From the NCBI RefSeq assembly GCF_015230015.1, contig NZ_JAAKZC010000001.1:1-64000 (forward strand): 64,000 nt of DNA, in the 5' to 3' direction. Numbering within the stretch: position 1 is the first letter of the stretch; each line of letters starts with the position of its first letter. The notes beneath the pieces are model-generated. The model had not been told where the DNA came from and did not search any database. It saw nothing but the letters and a program-made list of their open reading frames with translations. Source of the DNA: Campylobacter concisus. Its GTDB lineage: Bacteria > Campylobacterota > Campylobacteria > Campylobacterales > Campylobacteraceae. The translations under genes and the position numbers were made by a program. This document shows, in pieces, positions 1-21,563 of the stretch.

Positions 1-423
1 TTGTGCCACTACCAATTATTTTGCCATCTTTATCTTTTACTACTACTGGAGCATTTGGCTCATCTGAATGACCTTTTACAATTCCTTTGTCTGGGTTGCC
101 ATCTGCTGGGTTGTTTTCATCTACTGGAGTTACTTTAACGTCTTCAACTGTTGGAGGAGTTGTATCTGTGTAAACTGTATTACCAGCTGTGCCATCACCT
201 TTACCTGTGTTGCCAGCTTTATCAGTTACTTCTACTGTTACTTTATCACCTGGTTTGATTGGATCAGTTGTAACTTCGAAATTTCCTTTGTCATCAGTTG
301 TGCCACTACCAATTATTTTGCCATCTTTATCTTTTACTACTACTGGAGCATTTGGCTCATCTGAATGACCTTTTACAATTCCTTTGTCTGGGTTGCCATC
401 TGCTGGGTTGTTTTCATCTACTG
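1..423 (-). repeat. Tandem 297-base repeats coding for 99-residue Ig-like domains
   Basis: The sequence at 1-126 recurs at 298-423 with no difference seen by eye; the period is 297 bases, exactly 99 codons. The intervening bases complete one Ig-like unit. The array continues beyond the left edge. In-frame repeats of this type let an adhesin gain or lose domains by recombination without a frameshift. Confidence 0.85.
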
Positions 424-970
424 GCTTAATAGAATTTATAGTTACTACTGGAGCTGTAGTGTCGATGTAAAAACCTGTGCCACCGCCAGTGCCGCCATTA
501 TCTAGGCCGCCTCTTACGCCTGTTTCTGGGCTAGCAAAACCAAAACCACCCAACGAATTTATCGCACTAGTGCTAGCACTTATATTTGAGTAGTGTCCAC
601 CTTGTTCAAAACTAGCACTGCCAAGGCTAACGCCATCACCAGCACGGCCACCGCCAGTGCCGCCAGCTGCTGTTTCCTCTAAGTCGCCTAGATTTGCGCC
701 ATTTAATAAAGCTTTTTGAAGTGCCGCTACTTGAGCATCTCCGGCAGTTGCCTTTGGATCAAGTGTTAGCGTATCTTCGCCGATCATTGATAGCTCTTTT
801 CCATTATTTGTTGCTATCACAACCTTAGAATCAGCTGAAGTTGTTTTTACACTCTCACCTTCATACAGGCTATCGCCAACTTTTAGTACTCTTTGGTTAC
901 CACTTTTATCTACCGCAATAACCTCAGCAGAACCTGATATAGACTTAATTGTGCCTAGTTTCTTTGCCAT
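1..970 (-). CDS. LapA-like surface adhesin, N-terminal part (cut by window edge)
   Basis: The ATG at 968-970 opens a frame that runs off the left edge, so only the first 323 or so residues are present. Residues 1-75 match the retention module shared by the other adhesins here (KLGTIKSISG, DKSGNQRVLKVGDSLYEGE). LEETAAGG follows, with the di-alanine at 101-102, the kind of site LapG proteases cut in LapA. Next come the conserved GDGVSLGSASFEQGGHYSNI segment, a glycine-rich stretch, and bacterial Ig-like repeats of 99 residues (297 bases) rich in VDENNPADGNPDKG. The repeats are identical in DNA over about 120 bases, so the full protein is probably very large. Retention at the outer membrane and type I export are inferred from the family; no transporter gene is visible here. 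A palindrome lies 63 bases upstream of the start. Confidence 0.85.
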   Translation of the reverse strand, partial: MAKKLGTIKSISGSAEVIAVDKSGNQRVLKVGDSLYEGESVKTTSADSKVVIATNNGKELSMIGEDTLTLDPKATAGDAQVAALQKALLNGANLGDLEETAAGGTGGGRAGDGVSLGSASFEQGGHYSNISASTSAINSLGGFGFASPETGVRGGLDNGGTGGGTGFYIDTTAPVVTINSIKPVDENNPADGNPDKGIVKGHSDEPNAPVVVKDKDGKIIGSGTTDDKGNFEVTTDPIKPGDKVTVEVTDKAGNTGKGDGTAGNTVYTDTTPPTVEDVKVTPVDENNPADGNPDKGIVKGHSDEPNAPVVVKDKDGKIIGSGT

Positions 971-1033
971 GTTAATTCCTTTAGGGCTAAATTAATTTTG
1001 GCATTATTTTATAACTATTTCAATGGAATGTAA

Positions 1034-1051
1034 ATTGTACCAAAGTACAAT
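1034..1051. promoter_or_regulatory. Palindrome ATTGTAC-CAAA-GTACAAT upstream of the left-edge adhesin
   Basis: Perfect 7-base inverted repeat with a 4-base spacer, 63 bases before the ATG at 970. On the minus strand the second half-site contains TACAAT, which could serve as a -10 box, so a protein bound here would cover the promoter. The same element precedes four other adhesin genes in the window. Confidence 0.7.
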
Positions 1052-1258
1052 ATAGTTACATTTCTTTATTATATGTTACATTTATAGAATTTTTTGTAGT
1101 TATTAGGTGATATTTATATAACACTTATATAAAATTTAATTTTTATGTAAGAATTGATTAATGATATTTTAAGTTTTAAATGTTTTTATTTTATTGTACT
1201 AAATTTTAAAAGAATAATAGAATTTATAAAAAAATATTTGTAAATTTATAATAGAAAG
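1052..1258. other. A+T-rich intergenic stretch
   Basis: The gap between the left-edge adhesin and the next adhesin gene contains, besides the palindrome and the terminator described separately, only A+T-rich sequence. No open frame with a ribosome binding site was seen on either strand. Confidence 0.5.
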
Positions 1259-1287
1259 AAATTTAGACCCAAGAAGGGTCTAAATTT
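1259..1287 (-). terminator. Rho-independent terminator of the 1478-residue adhesin gene
   Basis: Inverted repeat TTTAGACCC-AAGAA-GGGTCTAAA directly after the stop codon of the adhesin gene, followed on the minus strand by a T-rich run. The next adhesin to the left therefore probably has its own promoter. Confidence 0.8.
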
Positions 1288-4200
1288 TAATAATCGACGT
1301 GGATGTTTTCTTTTACATCGATATAAGCTGTAGTTGTGCCGTAATTCGCCTCATATCTTTCAAAGCCCTCTACTGCGTTAGCAGCAGATTTACTAAAGCC
1401 TTCAAGTTTTACTCCGCCACTTGCTTGAGTTATTTGAAGCAAATTATTACTATGTTCGTGTCCGACATCAAGCATATCAGCTATATCAAGAGCTTTTAGA
1501 GTGACCTTTTCATTGCTAGTAACCTTTAACTCTTCAAAGCTCTTAACCTTTGTAAAGTCTATCTGACCATCAACCAAAAGCGTATCGTGATCATAGCGAC
1601 TTCTATTGTCTGAGTATCCACCAAGAATGCTAGTGCCACCCTCAAGCTTCATATCTTTAGATATAAAGACACTATCACTGCCATCCGATAGATCTATTTT
1701 AATATTAGTTAAGCTTCCAGATCTTAGCTCCAAATAATCTTTTGCATTTTCATGTCCACTCAAAATCCAGTTCGCATGGTGTTCAGCTGGCAAACCACTA
1801 GCTGATGCGTGAGTATCTTCAACTACCACATGCATTTCATTTATATAAGCCATGATATCTACATCTTTTAGGGTAGATGACTTTAAATTTATATCTGTAT
1901 GATAAGTACTACCAAATGAAGGGACTCTACTGCCTCCATTTATTTCTACATTATCAAGGTTTGAGCTATCTATATTTATAGTACCTTTTGATGATCCTGC
2001 ATAGATCGCACTTTTTTCTGCTGATGTTGTTGAGTTAATGTCAGTGTATTTGATATTTATAACGTCTTCATCGCCTTTAATTAATTCATTACCAACCAAT
2101 TGGAAGGCACCATTAAGCTTATTAGCATTAGTGCTTATGTCAATATCTGTCATTTTTACATGATCAGCTTTTGTACCTGTTATATTTAAGATATCGCTGT
2201 TAATGCCAAGATAGATGGTCTCTTTGTTAAAAACGCCACCATTTATATTTATGACGTCATTGCCAAAGCCTGCATTGATCTCAACTTTTTCGTGTGTTCC
2301 GCCATTTATATTTATAGTATCGTTCCCATTACGGGTGTCGATAGTGACATTATTTAAATTTGAGCTCTTGATATCAATCTTATCTTTTCCAGTATTAGTT
2401 CTAATATCAAGCCAATTTAAATTTGAACTATTGATATTGACCTCAATGTCTCCAGAGTTACTATATACTTCACTAAAATAGATCTTACTAGGATCTTCTC
2501 CTTCTTTATGGCTTACAGTTGCATTGTTGAAATTTAATACATTATCTCCATTCTCACGAAAATCTACATCAAAGCGTTTGTCGTTGTGAAATTCGCTATT
2601 TACAGTTGTTATATGGTCATTATCTATGATACCACCATTATACGTATATTTAGCGTTATCTATACTAAATTCTAAGATGACACTCTCGCTGTAGTAGTGA
2701 TTGTTTTCAACGCCCTTATCTGCATCTTTAAATAACTTTTCTTTATCCCATTGATGATAAAATATTCCACTATCTTCATCTTCAGATAAAAGCTTGCCTT
2801 CATTTAGCTCTTTATCGTCTATTACATTTGCACGAACAACTACTTTGTTGATATCGCCCGCTCTTAGACCTTTTATGACGCCACTACTATCTAGATCTAT
2901 CCACTCTTTCCCGCCTATTGAGTACTGAATTTTATCGTAGTCTTTGCCGTAAGTCGCCTTGCCACTAAATTTAAGCTTTACATCGATTTTTTGATCCACA
3001 TCAGCCTCTGCTACATCACCCCTTAGCTCAAATATTAAATTGTTATGTTCCCACATATTCGATCTTTCATGGTTTTCGATCTGAAAGCCTTGTTTGCCAT
3101 ATATGCCTATGTTTTTTACATATTTTGAGTCATATTCATGTATATATTCTGGCTCTGGATCAGGCGCAGGCTGTGGTTCAGGTGTCGGCTCTGGCTTAGG
3201 TTCTGGTTTTGGCTCAGGTTTAGGTTCTGGTTTTGGTTCTGGCTGAGGCTCAGGTTGTGGAGCTGGATTTACAGGCTCGACTGGTGTAGGCTCTGGCTTA
3301 GCACCAAGATCGACATTGATACCATCTTTTACATCTATATAGCCTTTTCTCGTATAAGATCTGCCATTTTCCTGAAAGCTAAAGTCGCCCTCATATCTTG
3401 TAAAGCCATCTTTTAGACCTCTTGCGTAGTCCGAAGGCTTAAAGCCTGCTAGCTCTACTCCACCAGCTGCCTCTGTGACTGTCAAGATATGTTTGCTATC
3501 GCCATTTTTAATGTCAAGCATATCATATAGCTCTTCTAGTTTTAGGCTGACCTTCTCGTTGCCAGTCACTTGTAGCTCTTCAAAGCTCTTAAATTTATCA
3601 AATTTAACATTACCGTCAATCACAAGCGTATCGGTTTCGTAGTTGGTGCCACCATTTATCGTAGTGTATCCATCAAGCTTCATAGCTTTTGAGACGACGA
3701 CTTTATCTTCGCCGTTACCAAGATTAACAGTCATATCGTTTAAAGTGCCTGATCTTAGCTCTAAAGTATCATCTGTATCTGCAAAATTCCACTTTGTAGC
3801 ATTTTCTGGGAAGTTGCCATTTACCTTTGTATCTTCAACTACTACGTGAGTTTTGTAGATAGTGTTGAGATTTACATCATCAAGAGTAGATGATTTTAAA
3901 TTTAGATCGAAATTTAGTGGATTTCTATTTACATCGGTGCCTGTGTTGGTCTCTGTGCCTATGTTGATGCCCTTTAAAGTTGAGTTTTCAACATTTACGG
4001 TGTTGTTTTTTGATTCGGCGATGATGTGGTTGGCTGAATTTTTGTATGTTGAGTCCATCTCAGTATATTTGATATTTATCTCATCTCTATCGCCAGAGCC
4101 AGTTCTTAGGTACATATCTGTCATTTTTACATGATTATCTTTTGTGCCATTTAAATTTAATACATCGTTTCCGCTATCAAGCGTGAAGCCACTTTGATAA

Positions 4201-5723
4201 GGATCGGTGCCTATGTAAGTTCCGCCGTTTAAATTTACAGTATCGTTGTCTGCGCCAGTTTCGACGTGAAGTCTCTCGTGTCTTCCGCCATTTATATTTA
4301 TGGTGTCATCTCCGCCTTGGGTGTTGATATTTAGCCAGTTTAAATTTGAATTGCTTGAGTTTATAATATCTACTCCATTATTTTTCTCACCATCACCAAA
4401 AACTATGTCACTAGGTATCTTTTTATTCTCATCACGGCTTATAGTTGCATTTTCAAAATTTAAAGTGTTATTGCCATTGTTTTTAAACGTAGCATCAAAG
4501 AATTTATCATTGTGAAATTCGCTTGTGATAGTAATGTTATGATCATTATCAACAATATAGCTATTTTTTGTGGCTTTGTTATCTCCTATGCTAACTTCTA
4601 ATGAAACGCTCTCTTTAAAGTAGCCATTATTTTCTACGCCCTTATCTGCATCTGTGAAAATTTTCTCTGATAGATCAAGTGTGCCTTCGTTTTGATCGTG
4701 ATCGTTTGCCACTTCAACACGAACGCTTACGTTGTTGATATCGCCTGCTCTAACGTCCTTTATCACGCCGCTTTTATCAAGCTTTTGCCAAGTTTTGCCA
4801 CCATCAAGCGAGTACTCTGCGCCTTCATAGTCTTTGCCAGCAGTTGCATCTCCGCTAAATTTAAGCGTCACATCTACCTTTTTATCAGCGTCAGCCTGTG
4901 CTACTTCACCTTTTAGGTTGTACTCTAGGTATGATTTGTCGTCTGAGCTCTTTTCATAGCCAAATTCTGACTTGTTTTCAACCGAGATATTTTTAACTAT
5001 ATCTTTGCTCTCGTCAGGTTTTGGCTCTGGCTGTGGTTCAGGCTTAGGCTCAGGTTTTGGTTCAGGTTTTGGTTCAGGTTTTGGAGTTGGTTCTGGAGCA
5101 GGTTCTGGAGCAGGTTCTGGCTTAGGTTCTGGCTCTGGAGTTGGTTTCTCTGGCTCTACCGGCTCAACAGGTTTTGGTTCTGGTGCAGGAGCTGGCTGTG
5201 GAGCTGGGACCACGTCATCAGCTTGAGCGCTTGGTTGGCTAGAAGTGGCTGCTAAATTTTCACTCGCGCCACCCTTTACTTCAGAATTTGTAAGATGAGC
5301 TGCTGGCAAAATAGCTGCTAGCTCGCTAACTCTTGCTGTGACGTTTGAGCTCTCGTGGCCACCATGTTCAAACCTTGCATCACCAAGGCTCACGCCCTCT
5401 CCACCTCTGCCGCCACTATTTCCACCAGCGGCACTATCTTCTAAATTTGCTAAATTTTCACCTTTTAACAGGGCTTTTTGTATGGCTGCTGCCTCTTTAT
5501 CTGAGCTAAGATCGCTATTTAAATTTAGCGTTTCCCCCTCTTTTAGCTCAAATTCCTTACCGTTATTTGATGTGATTATGACGTTTGCACCATTTGCTTT
5601 TACAACGTCGCCCTCATATATACTATCGCCCACCGCAACGACTCTTTCGTTGCCATTTTTGTCTATAACTACCACTTCCTTGGAGCCAAGAATGTTTTTA
5701 ATAACACCTACTTTAACAGCCAT
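1287..5723 (-). CDS. LapA-like adhesin with two tandem passenger modules (1478 aa)
   Basis: Residues 1-75 are the retention module (KVGVIKNILG, DKNGNERVVAVGDSIYEGD). The di-alanine site at 98-99 is LEDSAAGG rather than LEETAAGG. After GEGVSLGDARFEHGGHESSN comes a PEPKPEP-rich linker (about 170-240). A Calx-beta/Ig-like domain follows (GKDYEGAEYSLDGGKTW, then YIVDNDHN), then a long stretch with repeated GxDxxxI turns predicted to form a solenoid, ending near residue 850 in GYIDVKDGINVDLG, which resembles an export tail. A second PEPKPEP linker and a second copy of the same Calx-beta plus solenoid module then run to the true end, AYIDVKENIHVDY. The gene has a good ribosome binding site (AGGAGG) but, unlike most of its paralogues, no ATTGTAC palindrome. 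Type I export and adhesion are inferred from the family. Confidence 0.85.
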   Translation of the reverse strand: MAVKVGVIKNILGSKEVVVIDKNGNERVVAVGDSIYEGDVVKANGANVIITSNNGKEFELKEGETLNLNSDLSSDKEAAAIQKALLKGENLANLEDSAAGGNSGGRGGEGVSLGDARFEHGGHESSNVTARVSELAAILPAAHLTNSEVKGGASENLAATSSQPSAQADDVVPAPQPAPAPEPKPVEPVEPEKPTPEPEPKPEPAPEPAPEPTPKPEPKPEPKPEPKPEPQPEPKPDESKDIVKNISVENKSEFGYEKSSDDKSYLEYNLKGEVAQADADKKVDVTLKFSGDATAGKDYEGAEYSLDGGKTWQKLDKSGVIKDVRAGDINNVSVRVEVANDHDQNEGTLDLSEKIFTDADKGVENNGYFKESVSLEVSIGDNKATKNSYIVDNDHNITITSEFHNDKFFDATFKNNGNNTLNFENATISRDENKKIPSDIVFGDGEKNNGVDIINSSNSNLNWLNINTQGGDDTININGGRHERLHVETGADNDTVNLNGGTYIGTDPYQSGFTLDSGNDVLNLNGTKDNHVKMTDMYLRTGSGDRDEINIKYTEMDSTYKNSANHIIAESKNNTVNVENSTLKGINIGTETNTGTDVNRNPLNFDLNLKSSTLDDVNLNTIYKTHVVVEDTKVNGNFPENATKWNFADTDDTLELRSGTLNDMTVNLGNGEDKVVVSKAMKLDGYTTINGGTNYETDTLVIDGNVKFDKFKSFEELQVTGNEKVSLKLEELYDMLDIKNGDSKHILTVTEAAGGVELAGFKPSDYARGLKDGFTRYEGDFSFQENGRSYTRKGYIDVKDGINVDLGAKPEPTPVEPVNPAPQPEPQPEPKPEPKPEPKPEPKPEPTPEPQPAPDPEPEYIHEYDSKYVKNIGIYGKQGFQIENHERSNMWEHNNLIFELRGDVAEADVDQKIDVKLKFSGKATYGKDYDKIQYSIGGKEWIDLDSSGVIKGLRAGDINKVVVRANVIDDKELNEGKLLSEDEDSGIFYHQWDKEKLFKDADKGVENNHYYSESVILEFSIDNAKYTYNGGIIDNDHITTVNSEFHNDKRFDVDFRENGDNVLNFNNATVSHKEGEDPSKIYFSEVYSNSGDIEVNINSSNLNWLDIRTNTGKDKIDIKSSNLNNVTIDTRNGNDTININGGTHEKVEINAGFGNDVININGGVFNKETIYLGINSDILNITGTKADHVKMTDIDISTNANKLNGAFQLVGNELIKGDEDVINIKYTDINSTTSAEKSAIYAGSSKGTINIDSSNLDNVEINGGSRVPSFGSTYHTDINLKSSTLKDVDIMAYINEMHVVVEDTHASASGLPAEHHANWILSGHENAKDYLELRSGSLTNIKIDLSDGSDSVFISKDMKLEGGTSILGGYSDNRSRYDHDTLLVDGQIDFTKVKSFEELKVTSNEKVTLKALDIADMLDVGHEHSNNLLQITQASGGVKLEGFSKSAANAVEGFERYEANYGTTTAYIDVKENIHVDY
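3145..3300 (-). repeat. In-frame minisatellite coding for the second PEPKPEP linker
   Basis: Short degenerate units of the ggttctggtttt type code for alternating Pro-Glu-Pro-Lys residues between the two passenger modules. Unit changes would be in frame and alter linker length only. Confidence 0.65.
5020..5205 (-). repeat. In-frame minisatellite coding for the first PEPKPEP linker
   Basis: Repeats of the ggttcaggtttt type code for a Pro/Glu/Lys-rich spacer between the retention module and the first passenger module. The same kind of linker recurs near 3.2 kb. Confidence 0.65.
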
Positions 5724-5752
5724 CGCTGCCTCCTATAAAATCAATTTGACAC

Positions 5753-5758
5753 ATTATA
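5753..5758 (-). promoter_or_regulatory. Candidate -10 box TATAAT for the 1478-residue adhesin
   Basis: On the minus strand TATAAT lies about 30 bases before the ATG at 5723, followed by an AGGAGG ribosome binding site. No ATTGTAC half-site is present, so this gene may be controlled differently from its paralogues. Confidence 0.4.
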
Positions 5759-5860
5759 AATATTTCTTTTAAATATAAAGTAATGTAAATATGATGTTAA
5801 TTCTTAAGATTGCGCTGTTGCAGTGGGTTTTAAAATTTAAATTTTTGATAAATATAAGTA

Positions 5861-5878
5861 AGATCCCAAAAGGGATCT
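5861..5878 (-). terminator. Hairpin after the 468-residue protein gene
   Basis: AGATCCC-AAAA-GGGATCT just downstream of the stop codon of the 468-residue gene. The T tract beyond the stem on the minus strand is weak, so some read-through into the 1478-residue gene is possible. Confidence 0.6.
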
Positions 5879-5882
5879 AAAT

Positions 5883-7289
5883 TTAAAGATCGACGTGAAT
5901 GTCTTCTTTTATATCTATATAGACTGTGCCTTGACGATCACTACCATCTGCTAAGTGCGTATTATAGGCACTTTCATATCTATGGTAGCCATTTTCTGCT
6001 CCGCTAGTTTCACTAAAACCATTAAGTTTTACGGTCCCATGCGCTTCACTAAATTTAACTACATTAGAGCCATTGTCTAAAATGTCACTCAAATGAGCCA
6101 CATCATTGCCATTTAATGTCACATAAGCACCGCTCGTTACTTTTAATTCTTCAAAACCAGAGACCTTTGAGAAGTCGATATTATTATCAAGTACAAGCGT
6201 ATCATAGCCCTTGCCACCAAATATTTGAGTATTATTATCTATATCTGTTCTTGTCATAGTTAAACTAACTGTATCATCTCCGCCACCTAGATAAAATTTA
6301 GAATTTTTTATGATAGCTGATGTCACATTTAAAGTATCATTTTGATTATCTGAGAAGTAAAATTCGTTATTTTTACCATGAAATTCTGAGTCGTCTATAT
6401 GCATATTGACCTTGTTGTTTCTGCCGTCAAATTTAACGTCACCCATAAATTTTGGCCCAAGAAAATTCATATCAAAAAGCGGTGTGTGGTCTAAATTTGC
6501 GTGCGAGCCTTTTATATCTATCTCGCCGTCTCCACCGCACACTTTTATATTCATAGTGGTCTTTTCGCCGTCGTTTGCTTCGATAGTAGTGTGTCCGTTA
6601 AAGATAGTGTTGTCCATATTTAGCGTATCTACTTCGTTTGGATTTGTAAAGCTAGAAAGAGAAATTTTTGTATCACCAAAAAAGCCCACCCAGTCGGTAT
6701 TTATAGTGTCATTTCCTCCGCCAAGCCTTATATCTGCGCCATTTTTGATTTCACATCTTTGGATATCTATGACATCGTTATCTAGACCTGTATGAATGGC
6801 AGCATTTTCCATCGTCGCACCATAAATTTTTACGCTATCATCGCCGTCATTTGTGTATAAAAGCGTATGATCTTTTATGCCGACGTTGTTTCTTATCTCT
6901 ATCTCGTCGTTGCCAGCTCCAGCGTCAAATCTCAGCCCTCTAACCTCGATATTATCGTGAATTCTTAGCTTGTTGTCACCATCTCCTGCGTCTATCTTAG
7001 CATCATTTACGATAGATCTTGTCATATCGACTATATCGTTGCCATTGTCAAAACGCACATCATTTGCACTCGTGGTTGCGTCTGCGATGTTTAAAATTTG
7101 ATCCTGCGCTTTTGGCCTTGCATCTGCCACCCTTCGTCCGTATAGCTCAGCAAGAAAATTCTTGGGCTCAAGTATCTCAAGCGACTTTACCTCCTCTATG
7201 ATCCTCACGTGAGGGTCATTTTGCCCGCCATTTTGAATCACGCCACCACTTAAATTTAACCCCTCTTTGTCGGCTACTTCTACGCTCAT
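5883..7289 (-). CDS. Secreted repeat protein without retention module (468 aa)
   Basis: The protein begins MSVEVADKEGLNLSGG and lacks the 100-residue retention module and di-alanine site of its neighbours. Most of it (about 70-400) consists of repeats with GNDxxxI or GDDxxxI turns spaced roughly 20-35 residues apart, like the solenoids of the flanking adhesins. The end, YIDIKEDIHVDL, is nearly the same as the end of the 1478-residue protein, so it probably uses the same type I exporter. Without a retention module it should be released rather than held at the outer membrane; that is inference. It may also be a passenger module that lost its N-terminal part, although its own ATG and ribosome binding site look intact. 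No palindrome is seen upstream. Confidence 0.75.
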   Translation of the reverse strand: MSVEVADKEGLNLSGGVIQNGGQNDPHVRIIEEVKSLEILEPKNFLAELYGRRVADARPKAQDQILNIADATTSANDVRFDNGNDIVDMTRSIVNDAKIDAGDGDNKLRIHDNIEVRGLRFDAGAGNDEIEIRNNVGIKDHTLLYTNDGDDSVKIYGATMENAAIHTGLDNDVIDIQRCEIKNGADIRLGGGNDTINTDWVGFFGDTKISLSSFTNPNEVDTLNMDNTIFNGHTTIEANDGEKTTMNIKVCGGDGEIDIKGSHANLDHTPLFDMNFLGPKFMGDVKFDGRNNKVNMHIDDSEFHGKNNEFYFSDNQNDTLNVTSAIIKNSKFYLGGGDDTVSLTMTRTDIDNNTQIFGGKGYDTLVLDNNIDFSKVSGFEELKVTSGAYVTLNGNDVAHLSDILDNGSNVVKFSEAHGTVKLNGFSETSGAENGYHRYESAYNTHLADGSDRQGTVYIDIKEDIHVDL

Positions 7290-7434
7290 ATTAATCCTTT
7301 CTTAAAAAATTGACTTTTGGATTTTAATAAGCGTTTTTAAATCACATTGAAATATAAATTATATTGATTATCAAAAGAAATGCCTAAATTTAGGCTTTTT
7401 GTATAAAAAATTTTATTAAATGAAGCAAGGGGAG

Positions 7435-7459
7435 TTTAGACCCAAAAAATGGGTCTAAA
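7435..7459 (-). terminator. Rho-independent terminator of the 1076-residue adhesin gene
   Basis: TTTAGACCC-AAAAAAT-GGGTCTAAA just after the stop codon. The stem is identical to that after the 1478-residue gene, suggesting the gene ends were duplicated together. Confidence 0.75.
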
Positions 7460-7462
7460 ATT

Positions 7463-10400
7463 TTATGCCAACAACTCATTTACATTGACATCTTGTATAG
7501 TAAGCGTAAATGTCTGACCGCCTTCATTTACGTTATATATATGGTTTCCATTGCTATCTATTGTAGAAGCATTTGCTACTTCAGCTGAGCCTTCCGTAAA
7601 TGAGCCAACAAATTTATCACCTTTTACGATTAGCGATGTTGCACCTTCGCCACCGACATTTTTTATGAAGTTTGCGATATCTGAAGCATTGAAAAATGTA
7701 AAATGCTCATTAGCGTCTGACATATCAAGCACCTCAAAACCACTTATCTTGCCAGCATTTGTCGTATTAAATGATGCGTCATGAACTTTTAGCGTATCTA
7801 TGCCGTCGCCTCCATTTATAGCAGTGCCATTTAGGCTTACATCCTTGCCAAGATCGACTAAGTCGCTACCGTCACCGCCTGAAAGGTAGGTGTTGGTTAG
7901 CGTCACGTTATCAGCTATATTGATAGTGTCGTTGCCTTTGCCTGAGTTGATGTTTGATGTATCGTAGTCATGCGCAGCTTCGCCTGCAGCTGGACTTAAA
8001 TTTACACTTGATGTGCCAGTTAGATCAGCGTTGATATTTATCGTATCGTCTCCACCTTGAGTGAAAATTTTAACATCAGTATTATCATGAGTGCCAGCTC
8101 CGATAGTCACGCTATCGCCGTCATCTGCGGTATTTATGGTGACCCTTCTAAGCTCAGCGTTATCGATAGTCACGGTTTTTACGCCAGCATTTCCAACGCC
8201 TGCACCCTCTATGTTTGTATCAACTAGACCGGTAGCCTTTGCGACATTTAGCATTACGTTGCCATTTTCAAGCATGATGTTTGAATCCACCATAGAGACA
8301 TCACCATCTACATTTACATGGTCATCTCCGCCATTTGTGTAGATGATAGCCTTGTCAAATGAGCTATTTCCAGAGACGTTAATAGTGTCATTTCCGCCGC
8401 CTGCACCGATATATGTGCTAAATCCATCATTTGAGATCATGGTAACATCTTTTAAATTTATCACATCATCGCCATATCCAGTCTCAATGGCAGCGTTGTT
8501 AAATTTAGCGCCAGTAACATCTATGCTGTCTCTATCGTCACTTACTCCAGCATCAGCTGAGCTAGTGTTTATCTTAGTGTTTGAAATTTCAGCGCCTCTT
8601 TCGATAGTTAATGTATCGCGACCTTTGCCCATCTCTATGTAGTTTGAGTGAATTCCAGCTTGGTTAGCTACTGGATTTGCTACGTGAGCTGGTGAGCTTA
8701 TAGGGTCATTATGTGTGGCGCTATTATTTTTTATTTCAGTGCTGCCTTTGATAGTTAGGCTATCATTGCCCTCGCCTGTGTAGATATCCATAACATCTGC
8801 TTTGGTATCTTGAAGTACGATCTTATCATTGCCATTGCCACTTTTTATTTCAGAGTTATATATACCTGCACTGATGAAATTTAGCATATCACCTGTATCT
8901 GAATCGCCTGTATCGATATCAACTCTGCTGATACTTGCATCAGTAACATTTATAGTGTCATCGCCCTCACCTGTTTTTATAAAGCTATCAGTTCTGCTTC
9001 CTGCATACTCTGTCTCGTCAGTTGTTCCGTTATTAGTAACATAAGCATACATATCGCTTTTAATATTTACAGTGTCATTATCAGCACCAGTATCTATTTT
9101 GGTATTTTTTATAAGCTGATGATTATCGCTTTTTTCGATATTTACAGTATCGTTGCCACTTCCTGTTTTAAACAAGACATTGTCTAAAATCGTACTGCTA
9201 AGGCTTGGACCAGAATCATCTTTTATAGTAAATACATCATTGCCATCGTGGCTTGTAAATCTTGTATCTGTTATAACAGTTCCATTTATATTGAGTGTAT
9301 CTTGATTTTTCTCTCCACCAGCGTTTCCAAGGTCTATCCTAGTACTTTCTACTACAGCATCTTTTCCGGTATTAAACACATCGTCGCCATCGCCCATTTT
9401 TATAACATCATTGGCATTTTCTTTTAGATCATATAACCCACTTGAAAAATAGACTTCCTCTTTGATAGTTATAGTATCATCACCATCTTTTGTGTCTATG
9501 ATAGTTTTCATGGTGTTGCCATTGTCTGGGTCAGAATTTACAAGAGCAGGGTTTAAGCCCTCTGTAGATGCATCTATATTTTCTGTGATATTTATATTGT
9601 CATCATTATCAATGATCTTGCCCTCAGCCTCGCCAGATGTGATAGCAGCGTTGTTTGTAGTTACGCTAAGAGTTACGCCCTCTTTATAAACGCCGTAGTC
9701 TTTTATACCAGGAGCGATATTTGCGCCTAGATCCTCGCTGCTTGCGCCCTCGTTTTGGTTGCCAGCTGTTTGACCGTAGTCATCTATCACTTGCACTCTA
9801 ACCTTTACATTTGCGATATCGCTTGGTGCCACACCACTTATCGTGCCGCCATTTTGTATCGCAGTCCAGCTATGTCCGCCATCAAGTGAATACTCCATAG
9901 CGTTTGAGTAGTCTCTGCCTGCACTTGCACCACTCAAATTTAGCGTTAGATCAGTAGGTGTAGTTGAGCTTGTAGCAGCCGATAGGCCTAGATTATAGAC
10001 TAGATACTCGTTTGGAGTTGCCTCTCTTGCTTCGCCGTTACCATCAAGTGATACACTTAGTGCTACAGGTGTAGCTGGAGTTGCTGGAGTAATAGGGCTA
10101 ACTGGAGCAACTGGAGTTACTGGTGCAACAGGGGTTGTTGGATTTGTTGGGTTTGCTGGGTTTTGCGGTGCAACACTATCGCCTTCGCCATTGTCGTTAT
10201 TATCAGCATAACCGCCGATTGGGCTATTAAAAGAGTCAAAAGCTCTGTTTGCATCGGTTAAATTTCTAAAATTTTCATTGATATTTGCGTAGTGGCCGCC
10301 CTCAGCAAAGCTAGCAGCGCCTAGACTTATGCCATCTCCGCCAGCTCCACCAGCTGCTGCGTTACCACCAGCTGCTGTCTCTTCAAGATCTGTGATGTTT

Positions 10401-10742: not shown

Positions 10743-10760
10743 ATTGTACCTAGGTACAAT
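10743..10760. promoter_or_regulatory. Palindrome ATTGTAC-CTAG-GTACAAT upstream of the 1076-residue adhesin
   Basis: A perfect 18-base palindrome including the spacer, 50 bases before the start codon at 10693. On the minus strand it continues as TATACA, as in several of the other copies. Confidence 0.72.
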
Positions 10761-14061: not shown

Positions 14062-14117
14062 CTTTATTCCTTATTTTATTTTTTTGTTTATTCTAGTGTT
14101 TTTTATTAAATTTGTAT

Positions 14118-14135
14118 ATTGTACTTTGGTACAAA
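14118..14135. promoter_or_regulatory. Palindrome ATTGTAC-TTTG-GTACAAA upstream of the mini-adhesin
   Basis: The inverted repeat matches the other adhesin copies except for the last base of one half-site. It lies 57 bases before the ATG at 14061. Confidence 0.68.
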
Positions 14136-14188
14136 GATGGTTTTAAGAGCGTTTTTTAAGAGTAAAAATAGGAATTTTAAAAGAGAAA

Positions 14189-14211
14189 TTTGGGCTAAAA
14201 AGCCCAAATTT
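14189..14211 (-). terminator. Rho-independent terminator of the 1402-residue adhesin gene
   Basis: TTTGGGCT-AAAA-AGCCCAAA, with an A/T-rich extension of the stem and a T-rich run after it on the minus strand, just beyond the stop codon. Confidence 0.8.
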
Positions 14212-17200
14212 TATACAAGTTGTTTGTTTATATCGTTATCGACATCTATGAAAATAGTTGTCGGAGTGGCTGAGCTTGTTTGACCTTCATATCTTGTATA
14301 TCCAGCTTCGACACCACTTTGATCTCTAGCCTCAGTAAATCCTTTTAATGAAACGCTATCTTTGCTGTCGCCACTTATTTTTAAGATAGTACTTACATCA
14401 TCAGTGATGCTAAATACATTATCCGCTTTTAAATTTAGTAGCTTAACAGTTTGGTTGTCATTGCCATGCTCATCCATGCCAAGCTGGATCTCTTCAAAAT
14501 TCTTGATCGCATTATTTAAAGATTTATTGTCTATCTTATCAAAGTCGATAGTGCCATCCTTTGCCATTGGACGCATGATAAGCGTATCTGTACCCTCTCC
14601 GCCATCTAGACTTTGAGATAGAGCTGCTCTTGGATTATCAAAAGTAAATACAACCTTATCATTGCCAGCGCCAGCATTTACTAGATCGCCTTTGTTCATG
14701 CCATCATAGCCACTTCTGCCAGCGTCGATGTAGTCGTTACCACTTCCTGTGGTTATGACGTCGTTGTTGTCGCCAGTGATGATTACATTGTTGCCATTGC
14801 CTGTGCGAATTTCATTTTCACCGCGTCCTGCGTTGATCACGTTGTTTCCATCTCCAACGGTTATGATATCGTTGCCCTCAGTCGTTGTGATAACGTTATC
14901 GTTGTTGTTTTCTGCAACTACTCTTGTATTTTTAGCGATATCAGAAACTTGCAAATAGACATCACTTGCTTTTACATCGCCGTTAAATACTGCTTCGAAA
15001 TTTCCATTGTCATCAAGTTTTACAGAATTTGCAGTTATGATGTGTCCATCAGCATCTCTTAAAGTGATACTATCTTTTAGAGCTATGCCTTTTACCGCCT
15101 CTTCAAAGTGTTGTTTTAGCGTGTAGCTTGCACCAACACCATTTTCACTTAAATTTCCACTCCATGTGGTTTTATTTGCCGCTGCGTCATAGCTTAAATG
15201 TGAGTTATTTATAGTTGCGGCTGTTGCATCGATAGTAAATTGAATAGAGTTGTAAAGCAGCTCATCTCCACCTTGATATTTACCATCGATAGAAATTTTA
15301 TAAACACCATCAGCCATCTTGCCATTGCCATCAAGTCTGTTGTTATAGCCTGTAAGCCTGTCATAGTGATCAGGTGTTACATTGCCTATCGGTTTTTCTA
15401 TCGCTTGAGACAATAGAACTTTTGAAACGCCTGTATCAACGTTAGTTGCTACAAATCTAACATCACCAGTGCCCCATGTTATGCCTCTACCGCTATTTAA
15501 AAACTCGCTTACAGTTTGATTATTGCTAGCATTACCAGCTGTTGCATCTTCTGGGATCACAGCTCTTAGGTATGGGATAGCGTCGTTTGAGACGATCCTT
15601 GAGCCATCAGCTCTAAAGCCACTCTCACTCATATCCATAGTACCCCACAACTTCTCAGCTGAGCGGTTATTTGCATTTGTAGTTGTGTCGTTGCCGTTTT
15701 CAAACTGCGTCATAGTTGGAACTAAAATTTCATTTACATGAGTATATTTTGTACCAGCTTTGTCAGTCATCTCAACTTCTATCTTATCGCCTAGCTTTAT
15801 CTTGTGATCGTACTCAAAGCTTAGCACACCATTAGTTGGCTTAGTAGTGCCAACAGAGATGATCTCGGTAGTTCCGTCTGCCTTGACCACTTTTATGCTC
15901 TCGATCTTATCGCCATCTTCGTAGTTTTTGAGGTTAAATTTAAGCGTATGGTGCAAGCCCTCGCTATCATTTTCGATGATCTTGATGTTTTCTATAGTAA
16001 CTGGAGTCTTATCAACTACAAATTCGCTAACTATCGTGCTCTTGTCGCCATTTGCAAAGATCGCAGTTGCTTTGATGTTATATTTGCCGTCATTTAGTTC
16101 ATTAGATGTGACTTCAAATTTACCATTTGCAAATTCACTTTGACTAAGCTCTTTTGTAAATACTTTATGTCCATCTTTGTCAAGCACAGTGATGACCGCT
16201 TTAGTTGCACTGCTATCTATGCTGCCTGTAAATGTCGGAGTCTTATCGCTTAGTACTGGTAGTGGCGCATTAGATGAAAATTTATCAGTTTGAGCGATGT
16301 CATCAGTTGTATATTTATAATATTTAGTTGCATCGTTTATACCTGTATTTGTATTTGCACTTACACTGCTTGCATCATCATCGGTCGCATCTATTAGGTC
16401 TGTAGCGACATTATTTAGTTTAGTTGATTTTGCCTCTGCCTCGTTGCCTACAAGGTCGCTAACTTTAGCTGTGTATGTCGCTTTTGTATCGCTTGTTTTA
16501 AACTCAACCTCGTATTTACCGTCTTTTACAACTGCTGTATGGCTCTCGCCGGTGCTTGATGTCACAGTTACGATCTGTCCATCTTCTACATTATCCACAG
16601 TTCCTGTGATCTTTTGAGTTACTTTATAGACATTTCTTGTTACTGTATCTACGTAACTGTCAAAGTCGGTTGAATTTAGTTTTATGCCACTTGCCTCTGA
16701 GCCAAGTATGCTCTCAGGTCCGCCATCTTTTGAAACTGTTAGTTTTAGCTTGCCCCAATAGATGTAGTTTGCATAGCTCATATCAAAGTCGTAGTATCCT
16801 GCTTTATCAACGTGTAAAGTTGTAACTGTAGCTCTATTTTCTGAGTGGATAGTGTCATAATCGACCATTGTAACGCCATCAACCTTAAATCTCACGCTAT
16901 CGTCAGTGCCTTTTGCGTCAAATTTATAGTCCCCTGGCTCAAGATACATAGTGCCTTTTAAATTTACCATCGCACCAGCTGTTGTGTTTTTGCCATTAGG
17001 AGCATCTCTTAGGGGATGAATATCGCTACCTTTTGCATTGTCGATGAAGTACTCAAGTGCTCTAAAATTTGGAGCTACCCACTCACTATTTGGAGTTACT
17101 ACATTACCATCAAGATCGATCTTGCCGACCATATTGTGAGCACCGTCAAGTCCTGAGACTGTTCCTGCGTCGTTATCAGTGTTATCCCTATCTCCACCTT

Positions 17201-18419
17201 TACCTTGTTGGAAATTTAGCTCTTTTGCTTTAAAGCTCGCCCAAGGTTTAGTATTATTTGTATAGTATTCTATAAAGTCATTTTGTTTCATATGATCATG
17301 AGCGTATGTTGTATTATTAAAAGCATAAGGTCTTAGCTCAGTGCCACTTACGCCTGGCTCATAGATGTGGTTAAACCAGAAATTTCCTTTTAGTCCCTCG
17401 CTCATCTCAGACTCTTTTACAAGACTCATCTCAGTTTCAACGTTTATAGTTATTTTTGCAACTGTATCAAGTACAAAGCTACCACTATCAGTTGCTGTTT
17501 GGCCATCTCTTCCTGTAGCTGTTATCTCTACTTTATAATCGCCATCATGGCTACCATTTACGCTTAACTCATCAGTTGTAAATTTAAATTTACCATCAGC
17601 ATAGTCGCTTGGATTTAGAGTTTTTGTAAAGACTTCGTGTCCGTCCTTGTTAAGCACGCTAACAACCGCTCTTACAGCAGCTGGATCTACTGTGCCGCTA
17701 ATAGTTGGAGTAGCGTCATTTGTGCGAGGTACGCTTGGTGCATCTAGGCTGTAGTCGCCTTTTATAGTGCCAAAATCATCAGTTAAAGTTTTGATATCAA
17801 CACTAATTGGAGGTATGACTGGTGAGACAGGAGTTACTGGAGTAGGTGGAGTGGACGGTGTAACTGGAGTAGGTGGAGTTACAGGTGTAGCTGGTGAGAC
17901 AGGAGTTAAATTGCCTGTATCATTGCCGTCATTGTAGCCACCGATTGAGTTCTCTGGAGTTTGAAAAGCCCTACTTGAATCAGGTAAATTTCTATAATCA
18001 TCAGTAATGTTTGAATAGTGTCCACCCTCAGCAAAGCTCGCTGCACCAAGACTAACGCCGTCTCCACCAGCGCCACCACCAGTATCTCCACCAGCTGCAG
18101 TCTCTTCAAGGTCTGTGATGTTTGCGCCATCAAGAAGTGCTTTTTGGATAGCGCTTACATCAGCTACACTATCGTCACCAAAGCTCTCATTGTGAGCTAC
18201 ACTCTTGTCTAAATTTAGGGTATCTTTTCCGATGATCGCAATGTCTTTGCCATCGTTTGCAGTTATGACTACTTTTGAGTCAATATCAGTTGTCTGTATA
18301 GTCTCACCAAGAAAAATTTCATCGCCTACTTTTAACACTCTTTGTGTGCCGTCCTTTGCAGTTGCGATTACAGTTGCGCCTTGTGAAATGCTTTTGATTA
18401 TACCAATCCTTGCTGCCAT
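14211..18419 (-). CDS. LapA-like RTX adhesin with PA14-like and Ig-like domains (1402 aa)
   Basis: Retention module at 1-75, LEETAAGG with the di-alanine at 108-109, GVSLGAASFAEGGHYSNI at about 121-137, and a PVTPPTPVTPSTP linker at about 170-205. An Ig-like domain follows at about 225-325 (TNDATPTISGTVDPAAV). At about 342-566 is a PA14-like domain starting GLKGNFWF and containing YLEPGDYKFDAKGTDDSVRF, whose adjacent Asp pair is the usual calcium/sugar site. More Ig-like domains follow, one with TVDNVEDGQIVTV and one with DKTPTFTGSIDSSATKAVI. True RTX nonapeptides (EGNDIITVGDGNNVI) lie at roughly 1165-1255, and the tail is TTIFIDVDNDINKQLV. PA14 domains in RTX adhesins often bind carbohydrates, so glycan binding is a reasonable inference. 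A palindrome variant lies upstream. Confidence 0.88.
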   Translation of the reverse strand: MAARIGIIKSISQGATVIATAKDGTQRVLKVGDEIFLGETIQTTDIDSKVVITANDGKDIAIIGKDTLNLDKSVAHNESFGDDSVADVSAIQKALLDGANITDLEETAAGGDTGGGAGGDGVSLGAASFAEGGHYSNITDDYRNLPDSSRAFQTPENSIGGYNDGNDTGNLTPVSPATPVTPPTPVTPSTPPTPVTPVSPVIPPISVDIKTLTDDFGTIKGDYSLDAPSVPRTNDATPTISGTVDPAAVRAVVSVLNKDGHEVFTKTLNPSDYADGKFKFTTDELSVNGSHDGDYKVEITATGRDGQTATDSGSFVLDTVAKITINVETEMSLVKESEMSEGLKGNFWFNHIYEPGVSGTELRPYAFNNTTYAHDHMKQNDFIEYYTNNTKPWASFKAKELNFQQGKGGDRDNTDNDAGTVSGLDGAHNMVGKIDLDGNVVTPNSEWVAPNFRALEYFIDNAKGSDIHPLRDAPNGKNTTAGAMVNLKGTMYLEPGDYKFDAKGTDDSVRFKVDGVTMVDYDTIHSENRATVTTLHVDKAGYYDFDMSYANYIYWGKLKLTVSKDGGPESILGSEASGIKLNSTDFDSYVDTVTRNVYKVTQKITGTVDNVEDGQIVTVTSSTGESHTAVVKDGKYEVEFKTSDTKATYTAKVSDLVGNEAEAKSTKLNNVATDLIDATDDDASSVSANTNTGINDATKYYKYTTDDIAQTDKFSSNAPLPVLSDKTPTFTGSIDSSATKAVITVLDKDGHKVFTKELSQSEFANGKFEVTSNELNDGKYNIKATAIFANGDKSTIVSEFVVDKTPVTIENIKIIENDSEGLHHTLKFNLKNYEDGDKIESIKVVKADGTTEIISVGTTKPTNGVLSFEYDHKIKLGDKIEVEMTDKAGTKYTHVNEILVPTMTQFENGNDTTTNANNRSAEKLWGTMDMSESGFRADGSRIVSNDAIPYLRAVIPEDATAGNASNNQTVSEFLNSGRGITWGTGDVRFVATNVDTGVSKVLLSQAIEKPIGNVTPDHYDRLTGYNNRLDGNGKMADGVYKISIDGKYQGGDELLYNSIQFTIDATAATINNSHLSYDAAANKTTWSGNLSENGVGASYTLKQHFEEAVKGIALKDSITLRDADGHIITANSVKLDDNGNFEAVFNGDVKASDVYLQVSDIAKNTRVVAENNNDNVITTTEGNDIITVGDGNNVINAGRGENEIRTGNGNNVIITGDNNDVITTGSGNDYIDAGRSGYDGMNKGDLVNAGAGNDKVVFTFDNPRAALSQSLDGGEGTDTLIMRPMAKDGTIDFDKIDNKSLNNAIKNFEEIQLGMDEHGNDNQTVKLLNLKADNVFSITDDVSTILKISGDSKDSVSLKGFTEARDQSGVEAGYTRYEGQTSSATPTTIFIDVDNDINKQLV
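17806..17910 (-). repeat. In-frame repeats coding for a TPVTP-type linker
   Basis: Units of the ggagtaggtgga type code for a Pro/Thr/Val-rich spacer between the retention module and the Ig-like domain. It differs from the PEPK linkers of the 1478-residue protein. Confidence 0.55.
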
Positions 18420-18475
18420 ATCATGTCCTTATTAAAAAATTTCGTGTATTGTAATATTTTTTTAAAGCTTTGTAT

Positions 18476-18493
18476 ATTGTACTATGGTACTAA
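18476..18493. promoter_or_regulatory. Imperfect palindrome ATTGTAC-TATG-GTACTAA upstream of the 1402-residue adhesin
   Basis: The left half-site and both inner GTAC cores are intact; the outer part of the right half has diverged. The distance to the ATG at 18419 is 56 bases, as in the other copies, so position and core are conserved even where the flanks are not. Confidence 0.6.
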
Positions 18494-18516
18494 AATTTGA
18501 AATTTTGTAAGAATTT

Positions 18517-18540
18517 GCCCTAGTTTTGGGAGACTAGGGC
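18517..18540 (-). terminator. Hairpin after the 1003-residue adhesin gene
   Basis: GCCCTAG-N10-CTAGGGC, 11 bases after the stop codon. It separates this gene from the palindrome of the next gene to the left. Confidence 0.65.
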
Positions 18541-18551
18541 ATGAAATTTGA

Positions 18552-21500
18552 TTAGGAAATTATTTCGTCTTTTACTTCGATAGTAAATGTATTGGTGCCA
18601 GAAGTTGCCGTAAATGTTGTATATCCACCGCTTGACACACCTGGGCCAAAATCACTACTCATATGTACATGATCGCCACTTTCGCCATCTATCCTAAGAG
18701 TGCGGTTAGCGCCGTTGCCATTTGTGATATTTAGCACGTCATTTATAGTTAAATTTAGCGTTACGTTGTTTTCACTGCCACCAAGAGTAATTTTCTCAAA
18801 GCCAGCTACCTTGCTAAAGTCGATATTTCCAGCAAGATCTAGCGTATCAGTGCCTGCACCACCTTGGATAACGATACCCTTATGCTCTTTATGCCCAATA
18901 CCACCAGAAGTAGTCCAGCCATCTGCATTTATCTCTGCGTCCTTGCCGATATGTATTATGTCGTTGCCATTACCTAGATCAATAGTACTTGAGCCATCCC
19001 AGTATGTACCACCAGCATGTTTTAAACTACCATTTAAATTTACAACGTCATCGCCATCGCCCATTTTTATGGTAGTGCTTTTTAGCTCAGCGCCTTTGTC
19101 GATACTTATCGTATCGTCGCCATCACCCATGTTTATGCTAGAGAACTGAACGCTTTTATATCCATATTTTTCATGTGTTCCGCCAAATTTAGTTTCGCTA
19201 CCGATATTTATGGTGTCATTGCCAGCGTCAGTATTTATAGTGATGGCACCAGCTACGTTTTTGCCTTCAAAATTTATAGTGTCATTGCCACCTCTTGTAT
19301 CTATATCGGCACTACTTGAATCCTCAAGGTTATTTAAGATGTTATTACCTTTAAAATTTATCGTATCATTACTTTCGCCATAGCTAGTTACCCACACACG
19401 AGTTTTAGCTGTTAAATTTGATATATCAGCTGTAAAATCAACACCTGTTTTATTACTAAAGCCCGCTTGACCTATGCTTATGCCGTCAGCTATAACGTGA
19501 GCTGAGCTAAATGATCCGGTTTCATAGTGGCTATTGCCATCGTTATTGCCCTTTACTTCAAGTAGATCTTTTGCATAAGCTGTAACGCTCTCACCTTTGT
19601 TATTATCTAGTTTTAGGCTTTGATATCCTAACACTGCATCTTGTGACTCTCTATTTAAATTTACATTTGTTAGCGTAGAGTTTGATATCTCCATAGTATT
19701 TACATCTCTTGCCTCAGAGTATCTATCGCTAGTATCTACCCAAGCATCTGTCATAGTTATATTGTTTGCTTTAAAGGTATTGCTACCAGTATCCATCAGG
19801 ATATTTACTCTTTCTATCCTCACACCATCTTTTACATTTACCACATCATCGCCGTCACCTGTATGTATCTGGTTATCGTTGTACCAGCTATTGTGTATGC
19901 TAGGGTCTATAACTTTAAATGTTTCTTTACCAAGGATATTTGCATTGATATTTAAAGTGTTGTTTCCTGCTTCATCATGAGCGCTATTGCTTGAGCTAGG
20001 TGTGTATGCGCCAAGGTTGATGTTGGCTTTGAATATAGTAAGATCAGCATTGATATTTACTACGTCATCGCCTCTACCAAGGTTTATAGTAGTGCTATTA
20101 TAATGTCCAAGAACGCCGCCTACGCTTGCTGTGTTTTTAGTACCGCTTATAGTGACCTCTTTATCAAAATTTACTACATCGTTGCCAGAGCCAGTATCTA
20201 AGTGCAAATTCTCTAAATTTGCCTTTATGCTGACCGTATCATCGCCATCATTTGTATTTAAATTGGTATGGTTTGCGATATTTCCTTTGATATCTTTATT
20301 TAGCTCGATGTTGTCGTCGTTGTCTATGATCTTGCCTTCAGCCATATTTGCATTAGTTGTTGGTAGCAAATATCTGCTGCTTGGCGTAACGCTTAGTTTT
20401 ACACTCTCTTTAAACACAGCAAAGTTATCAACCATATCAGTTTTTTGTACGTTGTCGATAGTCATACCTTGAGGGCCAGTATTGTCACCTTCGTTTTGGT
20501 TGTGATGTAGCGGGCCTTTTGTAGTGTCTTGTCCGTCGTCGTCAAGCACTTTTATCCTTACTTGCACTTTTGAGATATCCTCTACGTTTACGCCTGGTAT
20601 TGTGTTGTTGGTATTTAGAGTTACCCAACTTCCAGCAGCGCCGTTATTTAGCGAGTACTCGATCAAATTTGCGTAATCCTCTCCTCTAGTGCCGCCTATG
20701 AAATTTAGAGCAAGGTCTGTTGTCTCGCCACTTGGGCTTACCGGAGTGCCTGATAGACCTAGTTTATAAACAAGATAGTGTCCGCCCTCGCCGTTTGCTC
20801 CAGCGCCGCTCTCTCTCACTTCGCTATTAGCTGGGTCCATACTGGTAGTCACCTCAACAGCACCTGGATGTGGTGGAATGACTGGTGGGTTTGCAGGTGA
20901 AGGGGTGCCTGGGGTTACGGTGACGCCAGGAGTACTTGGTGTGCTCGGAGTTGGTGGTGTTGGTGGTGTGCTTGGAGTACTCGGCGTGACAGGTGTAACT
21001 GGTGTACTCGGAGTTGGTGGTGTGCTTGGGGTACTTGGAGTGACAGGTGTAACTGGCGAGATAGGAGTTGTCGTATCTGCATCTGTACCTGCATCGTTAT
21101 AACCACCTATTGAGTTTTCTGGTGTTTGAAAAGCTCTATTTGCGTCGGTTAAATTTCTATAATTTTCATTGATATTTGAGTAGTGGCCGCCCTCGGCAAA
21201 GCTAGCAGCACCTAAACTTACACCATCTCCAGTAGCGTTGCCACCGCCTTGGTTGCCACCTGCTGCAGTCTCTTCAAGATCTGTGATGTTTGCGCCATTT
21301 AGCAAGGCTTTTTGGATAGACGCGATCTCTGGGTTGTCACTAAGTGCGTTTGCCTCTTTGTCTAGGCTCAGGCTTTCGCCATTTTGCAAGCTCACCTCTT
21401 TGCCGTCATTTGCTGCGATCACTGCTTTTGCAGAGCCATTAGCCTTTATAGTTTCGCCTTCAAAAATGCTATCACCCACCTTTAAGACTCTTTCGTTGCC

Positions 21501-21563
21501 ACTTTTATCAACAGCTACGATTTCACCGCCTAGGATGTTTTTGATAACGCCTAACTTTTGCAT
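18552..21563 (-). CDS. LapA-like adhesin with GxGxD solenoid repeats (1003 aa)
   Basis: Retention module at residues 1-68 (KLGVIKNILGGEIVAVDKSG, VLKVGDSIFEGETIKANG), LEETAAGG with the di-alanine at 100-101, then GVSLGAASFAEGGHYSNI and a long TPSTPPTPSTP linker (about 165-220). A Calx-beta/Ig-like domain (GEDYANLIEYSLNNG, closing GKIIDNDDN) leads into solenoid repeats such as TNDGDDTVSI, TGSGNDVVNF and MGDGDDTISI up to about residue 900. The tail is FTIEVKDEIIS. DNA near 21.1 kb is very similar to the matching part of the 1402-residue gene near 17.95 kb, so the two can recombine. A perfect palindrome lies 68 bases upstream. It is the first gene of the array after the two-component system. Confidence 0.86.
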   Translation of the reverse strand: MQKLGVIKNILGGEIVAVDKSGNERVLKVGDSIFEGETIKANGSAKAVIAANDGKEVSLQNGESLSLDKEANALSDNPEIASIQKALLNGANITDLEETAAGGNQGGGNATGDGVSLGAASFAEGGHYSNINENYRNLTDANRAFQTPENSIGGYNDAGTDADTTTPISPVTPVTPSTPSTPPTPSTPVTPVTPSTPSTPPTPPTPSTPSTPGVTVTPGTPSPANPPVIPPHPGAVEVTTSMDPANSEVRESGAGANGEGGHYLVYKLGLSGTPVSPSGETTDLALNFIGGTRGEDYANLIEYSLNNGAAGSWVTLNTNNTIPGVNVEDISKVQVRIKVLDDDGQDTTKGPLHHNQNEGDNTGPQGMTIDNVQKTDMVDNFAVFKESVKLSVTPSSRYLLPTTNANMAEGKIIDNDDNIELNKDIKGNIANHTNLNTNDGDDTVSIKANLENLHLDTGSGNDVVNFDKEVTISGTKNTASVGGVLGHYNSTTINLGRGDDVVNINADLTIFKANINLGAYTPSSSNSAHDEAGNNTLNINANILGKETFKVIDPSIHNSWYNDNQIHTGDGDDVVNVKDGVRIERVNILMDTGSNTFKANNITMTDAWVDTSDRYSEARDVNTMEISNSTLTNVNLNRESQDAVLGYQSLKLDNNKGESVTAYAKDLLEVKGNNDGNSHYETGSFSSAHVIADGISIGQAGFSNKTGVDFTADISNLTAKTRVWVTSYGESNDTINFKGNNILNNLEDSSSADIDTRGGNDTINFEGKNVAGAITINTDAGNDTINIGSETKFGGTHEKYGYKSVQFSSINMGDGDDTISIDKGAELKSTTIKMGDGDDVVNLNGSLKHAGGTYWDGSSTIDLGNGNDIIHIGKDAEINADGWTTSGGIGHKEHKGIVIQGGAGTDTLDLAGNIDFSKVAGFEKITLGGSENNVTLNLTINDVLNITNGNGANRTLRIDGESGDHVHMSSDFGPGVSSGGYTTFTATSGTNTFTIEVKDEIIS
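20880..21070 (-). repeat. In-frame minisatellite coding for a TPSTPPTP linker
   Basis: Degenerate units such as ggtgtgcttggagta are repeated many times and code for Pro/Ser/Thr/Val residues. Unit number can change in frame. Confidence 0.6.

Follow-up and report, generated by a model that had tools for sequence, protein, structure and literature searches.

Positions 1 to 64,000 of Campylobacter concisus contig NZ_JAAKZC010000001.1 (G000:C1:1-64000, from a draft assembly of 2.01 Mb in 39 contigs; this whole 64-kb stretch is called the window below) contain the largest gene cluster of a Lap system with many adhesins in the C. concisus complex. The cluster consists of seven minus-strand genes, here named A, B, C, D, E170, F and G (Table 1), all of which are present at the places given in the original prediction from the sequence. 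The system probably joins adhesins with interchangeable bodies to a dedicated non-releasable module, the 170-residue protein E170, which would act as a plug or a decoy. That the system is of the LapA type is well supported; what is new is its array form, its shared operator and its uncleavable, bodiless member, the last two of which the original prediction had missed.

The window was compared with 48 genomes of the genus Campylobacter; the array-sharing genomes G013, G015, G016, G018, G021 and G027 are referred to as the closer clade. Retention modules, here called heads, were identified with the NCBIfam profile retention_LapA NF033682 (cut-off 50 bits) and body domains with Pfam profiles, while folds were assigned by comparing predicted models with the PDB using Foldseek. 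Head fold, cleavage sites, machinery, operator, conservation and head homogenization were established from sequence or from such models.

Retention heads and LapG sites

Six of the seven genes (A, B, D, E170, F and G) encode a head matched by NF033682, as predicted, and gene C is headless. A, D and G score above the cut-off, F and B just under it and E170 well below it. The heads had been described as nearly the same, a description that does not hold at pairwise identities of 34-75%. The predicted model of the gene D head has block-mean pLDDT (predicted local distance difference test) values of 85-95 over residues 1-70, with helices preceding the cleavage site, and it significantly matches one PDB entry only, the cell surface anchoring domain 5IX9 (probability 1.00, template modeling (TM) score 0.78). 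The head sequence alone also finds 5IX9 in a phmmer search (E 9e-9). Thus the N-termini do fold like the retention module in the model, and most array genes are intact in the relatives, two points on which the original prediction could have failed. The LapG cleavage site is described for Pseudomonas (PMC13090378) as [T/A/P]AAG following a targeting helix and a DP turn. Genes A, D, F and G have TAAG at this place, and gene B has SAAG, a slight departure from the published site. LapA-type retention is therefore upheld by the profile matches, the 5IX9 fold, the [TS]AAG site in five adhesin heads and a complete Lap locus elsewhere in the genome. On sequence grounds an array arising by chance is excluded, because E-values of the heads reach 4e-18 and synteny is kept in related genomes.

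Twelve head matches were counted in the whole genome: six in the window, four on contig C2 and one each on C3 and C4, with weaker matches on C5, C8, C10, C15 and C17 and a second one on C3 left uncounted. Heads occur in 46 of the 48 genus genomes, at 1 to 14 per genome. In G017, draft breaks fall inside identical head DNA (contigs C13 and C15; L190, L191), so copy numbers of module genes in drafts are probably underestimates.

Three further head-bearing proteins of 1596, 1964 and 677 residues, encoded on contig C2 (L023:7084-11874, L023:12247-18141 and L024:4247-6280), have neither AAG nor operator; judging by these features they apparently form a second class of non-releasable retained proteins. 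On C3 and C4 (L026:10185-13801, L027:247-4761) a head-bearing open reading frame without an export tail is followed by a headless one with a tail. Each pair may be one gene that has been split or two distinct proteins; the C3-type ending has a similar counterpart in a relative (L186).

Lap machinery elsewhere in the genome

The original prediction was correct that no LapD, LapG or type I secretion gene lies in the window, and the search it suggested in the rest of the genome led to a lapE-lapG-lapD-lapB-lapC-luxR-lapG2 locus on contig C8. This locus encodes a TolC-like protein, LapG, LapD (with LapD_MoxY_N, GGDEF and EAL domains), an LssB/LapB-type ABC transporter, an HlyD-type adaptor, a DUF5416 protein, a LuxR-type regulator and a second, divergent LapG. 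LapB matches TIGR03375 (LssB type) at 939 bits against a cut-off of 693; LapC (TIGR01843, 397 bits) and LapE (TIGR01844, 226 bits) are likewise above their cut-offs. LapG1 and LapG2 match the solved LapG structure 4U65 (E 8e-51 and 9e-19), and LapD matches 3PJW (E 2e-25). Against the strict NCBIfam LapG equivalog profile both LapG proteins fall short (228 and 88 bits, cut-off 320), but they exceed the Pfam C93 cut-off. The genome as a whole has 10 GGDEF and 6 EAL matches, the domains of enzymes of cyclic di-GMP (c-di-GMP).

The lap locus is kept in all of the five other genomes examined, only some of which have the second LapG, and many genus genomes lack LapG2 and have one LapG only. The two module-free genomes of the 48 also lack both LapG and a perfect operator. 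LapG2 (L004:5435-6061) adjoins the LuxR-type gene, and the C, H and D of its triad are apparently in place. A literature search, in a collection that omits most subscription journals, found no paper on a Lap system in Campylobacter.

An operator-like palindrome before most module genes

The palindrome TTGTACN4GTACAA is found 50-90 bp 5' to most module genes. We rejected a chance repeat on the grounds that all five perfect copies in the genome precede module genes (A, D, E170, G and the gene on contig C3) and that the reversed-pattern control was absent (0 of 48 genomes, against 42 of 48 for the true pattern). The palindrome before the contig C4 gene has two mismatches. In the genus, the palindrome lies at -71 to -90 with no more than two mismatches in 57 of 67 distinct module genes, although these genes are partly orthologs and so not independent. 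When the listed coordinates were compared by hand, 59 of the 75 listed sites fell to module genes or E170. Three of these 59 are at contig ends: two run into the shared head and the third ends in the shared promoter. Fifteen others lie before ilvD (at 259 bp in the two measured), the spot of gene D in this genome; the last site, at the edge of a contig, is also in front of ilvD. Orphan operators serving a second regulon in other genomes were rejected in view of these 15 sites.

Candidate regulators acting at the palindrome are the LuxR-type protein encoded in the lap locus (L004:4801-5442) and the response regulator next to E170 (22088-22768). All lap loci compared contain the LuxR-type gene, also those of G031 and G042, which are without a perfect operator; co-occurrence neither links gene and palindrome nor separates them. 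The palindrome could instead be a recombination site, since the block of identical DNA found in relatives (described below) ends at or near it. However, it precedes lone adhesin genes throughout the genus, and the isolated E170 gene, at a fixed promoter distance, and we consider a recombination site improbable.

E170, a conserved bodiless member

E170 had been taken for one of the adhesins, which is not borne out. It has a head, a long helix at the place of the adhesins' targeting helix, a low-confidence and presumably disordered linker, and an export-type tail (TTIYIEIDNDLNKLS; compare TTIFIDVDNDINKQLV in gene F). There is no extracellular body in E170, the linker being all that lies between helix and tail, and no AAG site occurs in any E170 ortholog examined. 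The model of its head has 5IX9 as its sole significant PDB match (probability 1.00, TM score 0.83).

Orthologs of about 170-190 residues and 66-96% identity are present in single copy in 27 of the 48 genomes, the named relatives among them being C. concisus, and a perfect palindrome precedes the gene in all 27. In the members examined the gene lies between a response regulator and a thiD-like gene, and in the closer clade F, in most cases with G, is inserted. Omega in the closer clade is 0-0.09 for the head, 0.18-0.31 for the linker and, in most of these genomes, near 0 for the tail; the head has 0.15-0.17 in four genomes at a greater distance. The helix region that aligns with the targeting helix has the invariant pattern ALF.ALLG..Y..ILD..NEKV. 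No relative of E170 was found in viral contigs, and a plasmid search gave no match. A 171-residue frame in G042 was rejected as an independent bodiless protein; it has a TAAG site and a truncated end. Because of the conservation across 27 genomes and the low omega, E170 can be judged to be kept by purifying selection and to be no remnant. A decaying remnant of an adhesin that lost its body would also sit among adhesin genes and have both ends of one, as E170 does, but a common layout in 27 genomes, with low head omega and the perfect operator, makes such an origin highly improbable.

E170 may be a channel plug. It would be exported until its head stops at LapE, with the linker filling the pore and the tail just outside; being without AAG it could not be released, and would limit the channels open to adhesins or seal idle ones. 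The head fold, the conserved export-type tail, the variable linker and the lack of AAG in the orthologs examined are consistent with this, and by simple arithmetic an extended linker of 60-70 residues could span a TolC-type channel. The tail is short, however, with no RTX repeats, and its export is a prediction from sequence. We put the plug forward as possible and no further. A second proposal is that E170 is a LapG decoy, whose head and helix would dock on LapG as substrates do but offer nothing to cut, so that LapG is buffered or inhibited. The conserved helix region favors this, as does contact of both retention domain and helix with the protease in Desulfovibrio (PMC13090378); the tail would be superfluous, unless E170 enters the periplasm by another way. 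We regard a decoy as possible, though slightly less likely than a plug. The E170 sequence fits either role. More broadly, and tentatively, with a little less than even confidence, we suggest that there is a class of retention proteins without body or cleavage site, with E170 as its first member, that are co-regulated with LapA-type adhesins and set the number displayed, by plugging LapE, or the rate of release, by occupying LapG.

Homogenized heads and exchanged bodies

In G005, G007, G020 and G029, array paralogs are letter-identical from 58-95 bp before the start codon to nucleotide 402-549, and alignments of their bodies are no better than those of unrelated DNA. Between genomes the heads are 94-99.4% identical. 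Since they are identical inside a genome and 0.6-6% apart between genomes, the heads appear from these comparisons to be homogenized within genomes. In G021, 435 identical nucleotides of the head of gene F stand behind gene D's own promoter. Bodies of gene G in the closer clade are 53-70% identical, the heads 95-98%; gene B has a different end in G015, and the bodies of orthologous A, B and G genes have been replaced or have strongly diverged between genomes. Exact identity of heads and promoters within genomes is also what a very recent duplication followed by the gain of new bodies would leave, in place of repeated gene conversion. Against this, at least four genomes show the pattern, with a head version particular to each of them, and the bodies are wholly unlike; either process would, nevertheless, yield common heads with different bodies. 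Recent duplication seems to us a possible but less favored source of the identical 5' ends than conversion.

Array genes, bodies and tails

Bodies differ among the array genes, as originally described. Of the domain types named, Ig-like (Big_6, FlgD_ig) and PA14 domains are present, the latter in gene F (E 1e-4 when that piece is scanned alone; PDB 6m8m, E 7e-5), but Calx-beta was not found by Pfam, which detects RTX nonapeptides in gene F only. The export tails of B, D, F and G are related, and the end of A lies beyond the contig. Orthologs of gene A in four relatives have 3644-4756 residues; the sole candidate for its missing end in the assembly, a 56% match, belongs to another gene. The segment GVSLG.ASF.(E/Q)GGHY, reported as common to the full-length proteins, is present in A, D (as GISLG), F and G and altered in B (GVSLGDARFEHGGHE), but is absent from C and E170. 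It is not specific to the array; it is found just behind the cleavage site in modules genus-wide.

Gene C is 98% identical across five relatives, with omega of 0.05-0.08. Because it is also headless, this argues for a secreted, unretained protein and not a silent cassette. In G018, alone among the relatives compared, an additional headless protein of 799 residues with an export tail is encoded between A and B (L061:6361-8760; G018:C1:1944360-1946759). Elsewhere in the window, two small proteins without a Pfam family (28752-29243 and 36984-37496) have different N-terminal parts and a near-identical C-terminal part, RAKRELDxTIGRNPVTGKVTSKAELLGGNKATNNLEKAQ, another pair with a shared end and different fronts.

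Table 1. Coordinates of array genes, palindromes and adjacent regulators in the window
Feature	Coordinates	Strand	Remarks
Gene A, LapA-like adhesin	1..970	-	N-terminal 323 residues only (contig end); head, TAAG, Ig-like repeats; NF033682 56 bits, Big_6
Operator-like palindrome before A	1035..1050		perfect
Gene B, LapA-like, 1478 residues	1287..5723	-	head, SAAG; without operator; NF033682 44 bits
Gene C, 468 residues	5883..7289	-	solenoid-like body, export tail, headless; tail related to that of B
Gene D, LapA-like, 1076 residues	7463..10693	-	head, TAAG; NF033682 66 bits; head model resembles 5IX9
Operator-like palindrome before D	10744..10759		perfect
E170, 170 residues	13549..14061	-	head, long helix, linker, export-type tail; without LapG site, bodiless; NF033682 24 bits
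Operator-like palindrome before E170	14119..14134		perfect
Gene F, LapA-like, 1402 residues	14211..18419	-	head, TAAG, Ig-like, PA14, RTX; NF033682 49 bits
Operator-like palindrome before F	18477..18492		one mismatch
Gene G, LapA-like, 1003 residues	18552..21563	-	head, TAAG, solenoid-like body; NF033682 63 bits
Operator-like palindrome before G	21632..21647		perfect
Response regulator and dCache-like histidine kinase	22088..24419	-	upstream of the G-F-E170 run; candidate regulators by adjacency

Comparison with known systems

The system resembles LapA/LapD/LapG/LapBCE of Pseudomonas fluorescens in its retention head, AAG site, LapG, LapD of LapD_MoxY_N-GGDEF-EAL composition, LssB-type ABC transporter, HlyD protein and TolC-like channel. 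It differs in the number of module matches in one genome (12), in having a second LapG, in the missing DP ahead of the cleavage site, in a palindromic operator common to several genes and in an uncleavable, bodiless member. In Desulfovibrio vulgaris, DvhA and DVU1545 with DvhG and DvhD are similar in that more than one adhesin is under one LapG-type protease and the head contributes to protease contact; the available text of PMC13090378 describes two adhesins and no array, and mentions no uncleavable member. The anchoring domain of the Marinomonas primoryensis ice-binding adhesin (5IX9) has the same head fold, the comparison being of this single domain only.

The sap S-layer locus of Campylobacter fetus also has shared 5' ends, different bodies and type I secretion. 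Its product is not a retention-module protein, and one promoter serves the locus. DNA inversion at sap is cited in PMC3364211. Identical 5' ends with variable bodies are seen, as in sap, in G005, G007, G020 and G029 and not in this window. The array differs from sap in its promoters: in place of one promoter and silent cassettes, each copy examined has a promoter region to itself, in which the palindrome is complete or nearly so.

Proposed mechanism and significance

Several observations weigh against the interpretation given here. Genes B and C and those on contig C2 are without the palindrome, and the DP that precedes the LapG site in the Pseudomonas consensus (PMC13090378) is missing in the array heads. 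E170 scores 24.4 bits with NF033682, under the cut-off; confidence in its model is limited to about residues 1-70; and a tail of about 18 residues may be insufficient for export. The module swapping of the original prediction is supported in relatives, by body exchange, but the heads in this window are not homogenized, so that exchange here is indirect.

With these reservations, we infer the course of export, retention and release, the regulator and the role of E170 as follows. A single LapB-LapC-LapE machine would serve all the large proteins, exporting each with its C-terminus leading, and the folded N-terminal head, unable to pass LapE, would leave the adhesin threaded in the outer membrane. 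When c-di-GMP falls, LapD would free LapG, which would cut at [TS]AAG, and the adhesin would be shed. Recombination between genes whose 5' ends match would change the bodies, and most module genes, E170 included, would form a regulon run by the operator TTGTACN4GTACAA. E170 most likely acts on the system and not on surfaces, as a non-releasable LapE plug or an uncleavable LapG decoy.

C. concisus lives in the mouth and gut. This oral bacterium has been linked to inflammatory bowel disease (PMC3364211). In this organism a single switch, the protease, would govern a dozen surface proteins together, and a small conserved protein may tune that switch. With homogenized heads the bacterium can change its adhesive bodies yet keep one export and release code. 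The operator is a ready sequence handle on the regulon, and a conserved miniature with a tether, but without body or cut site, could make the control of release testable.

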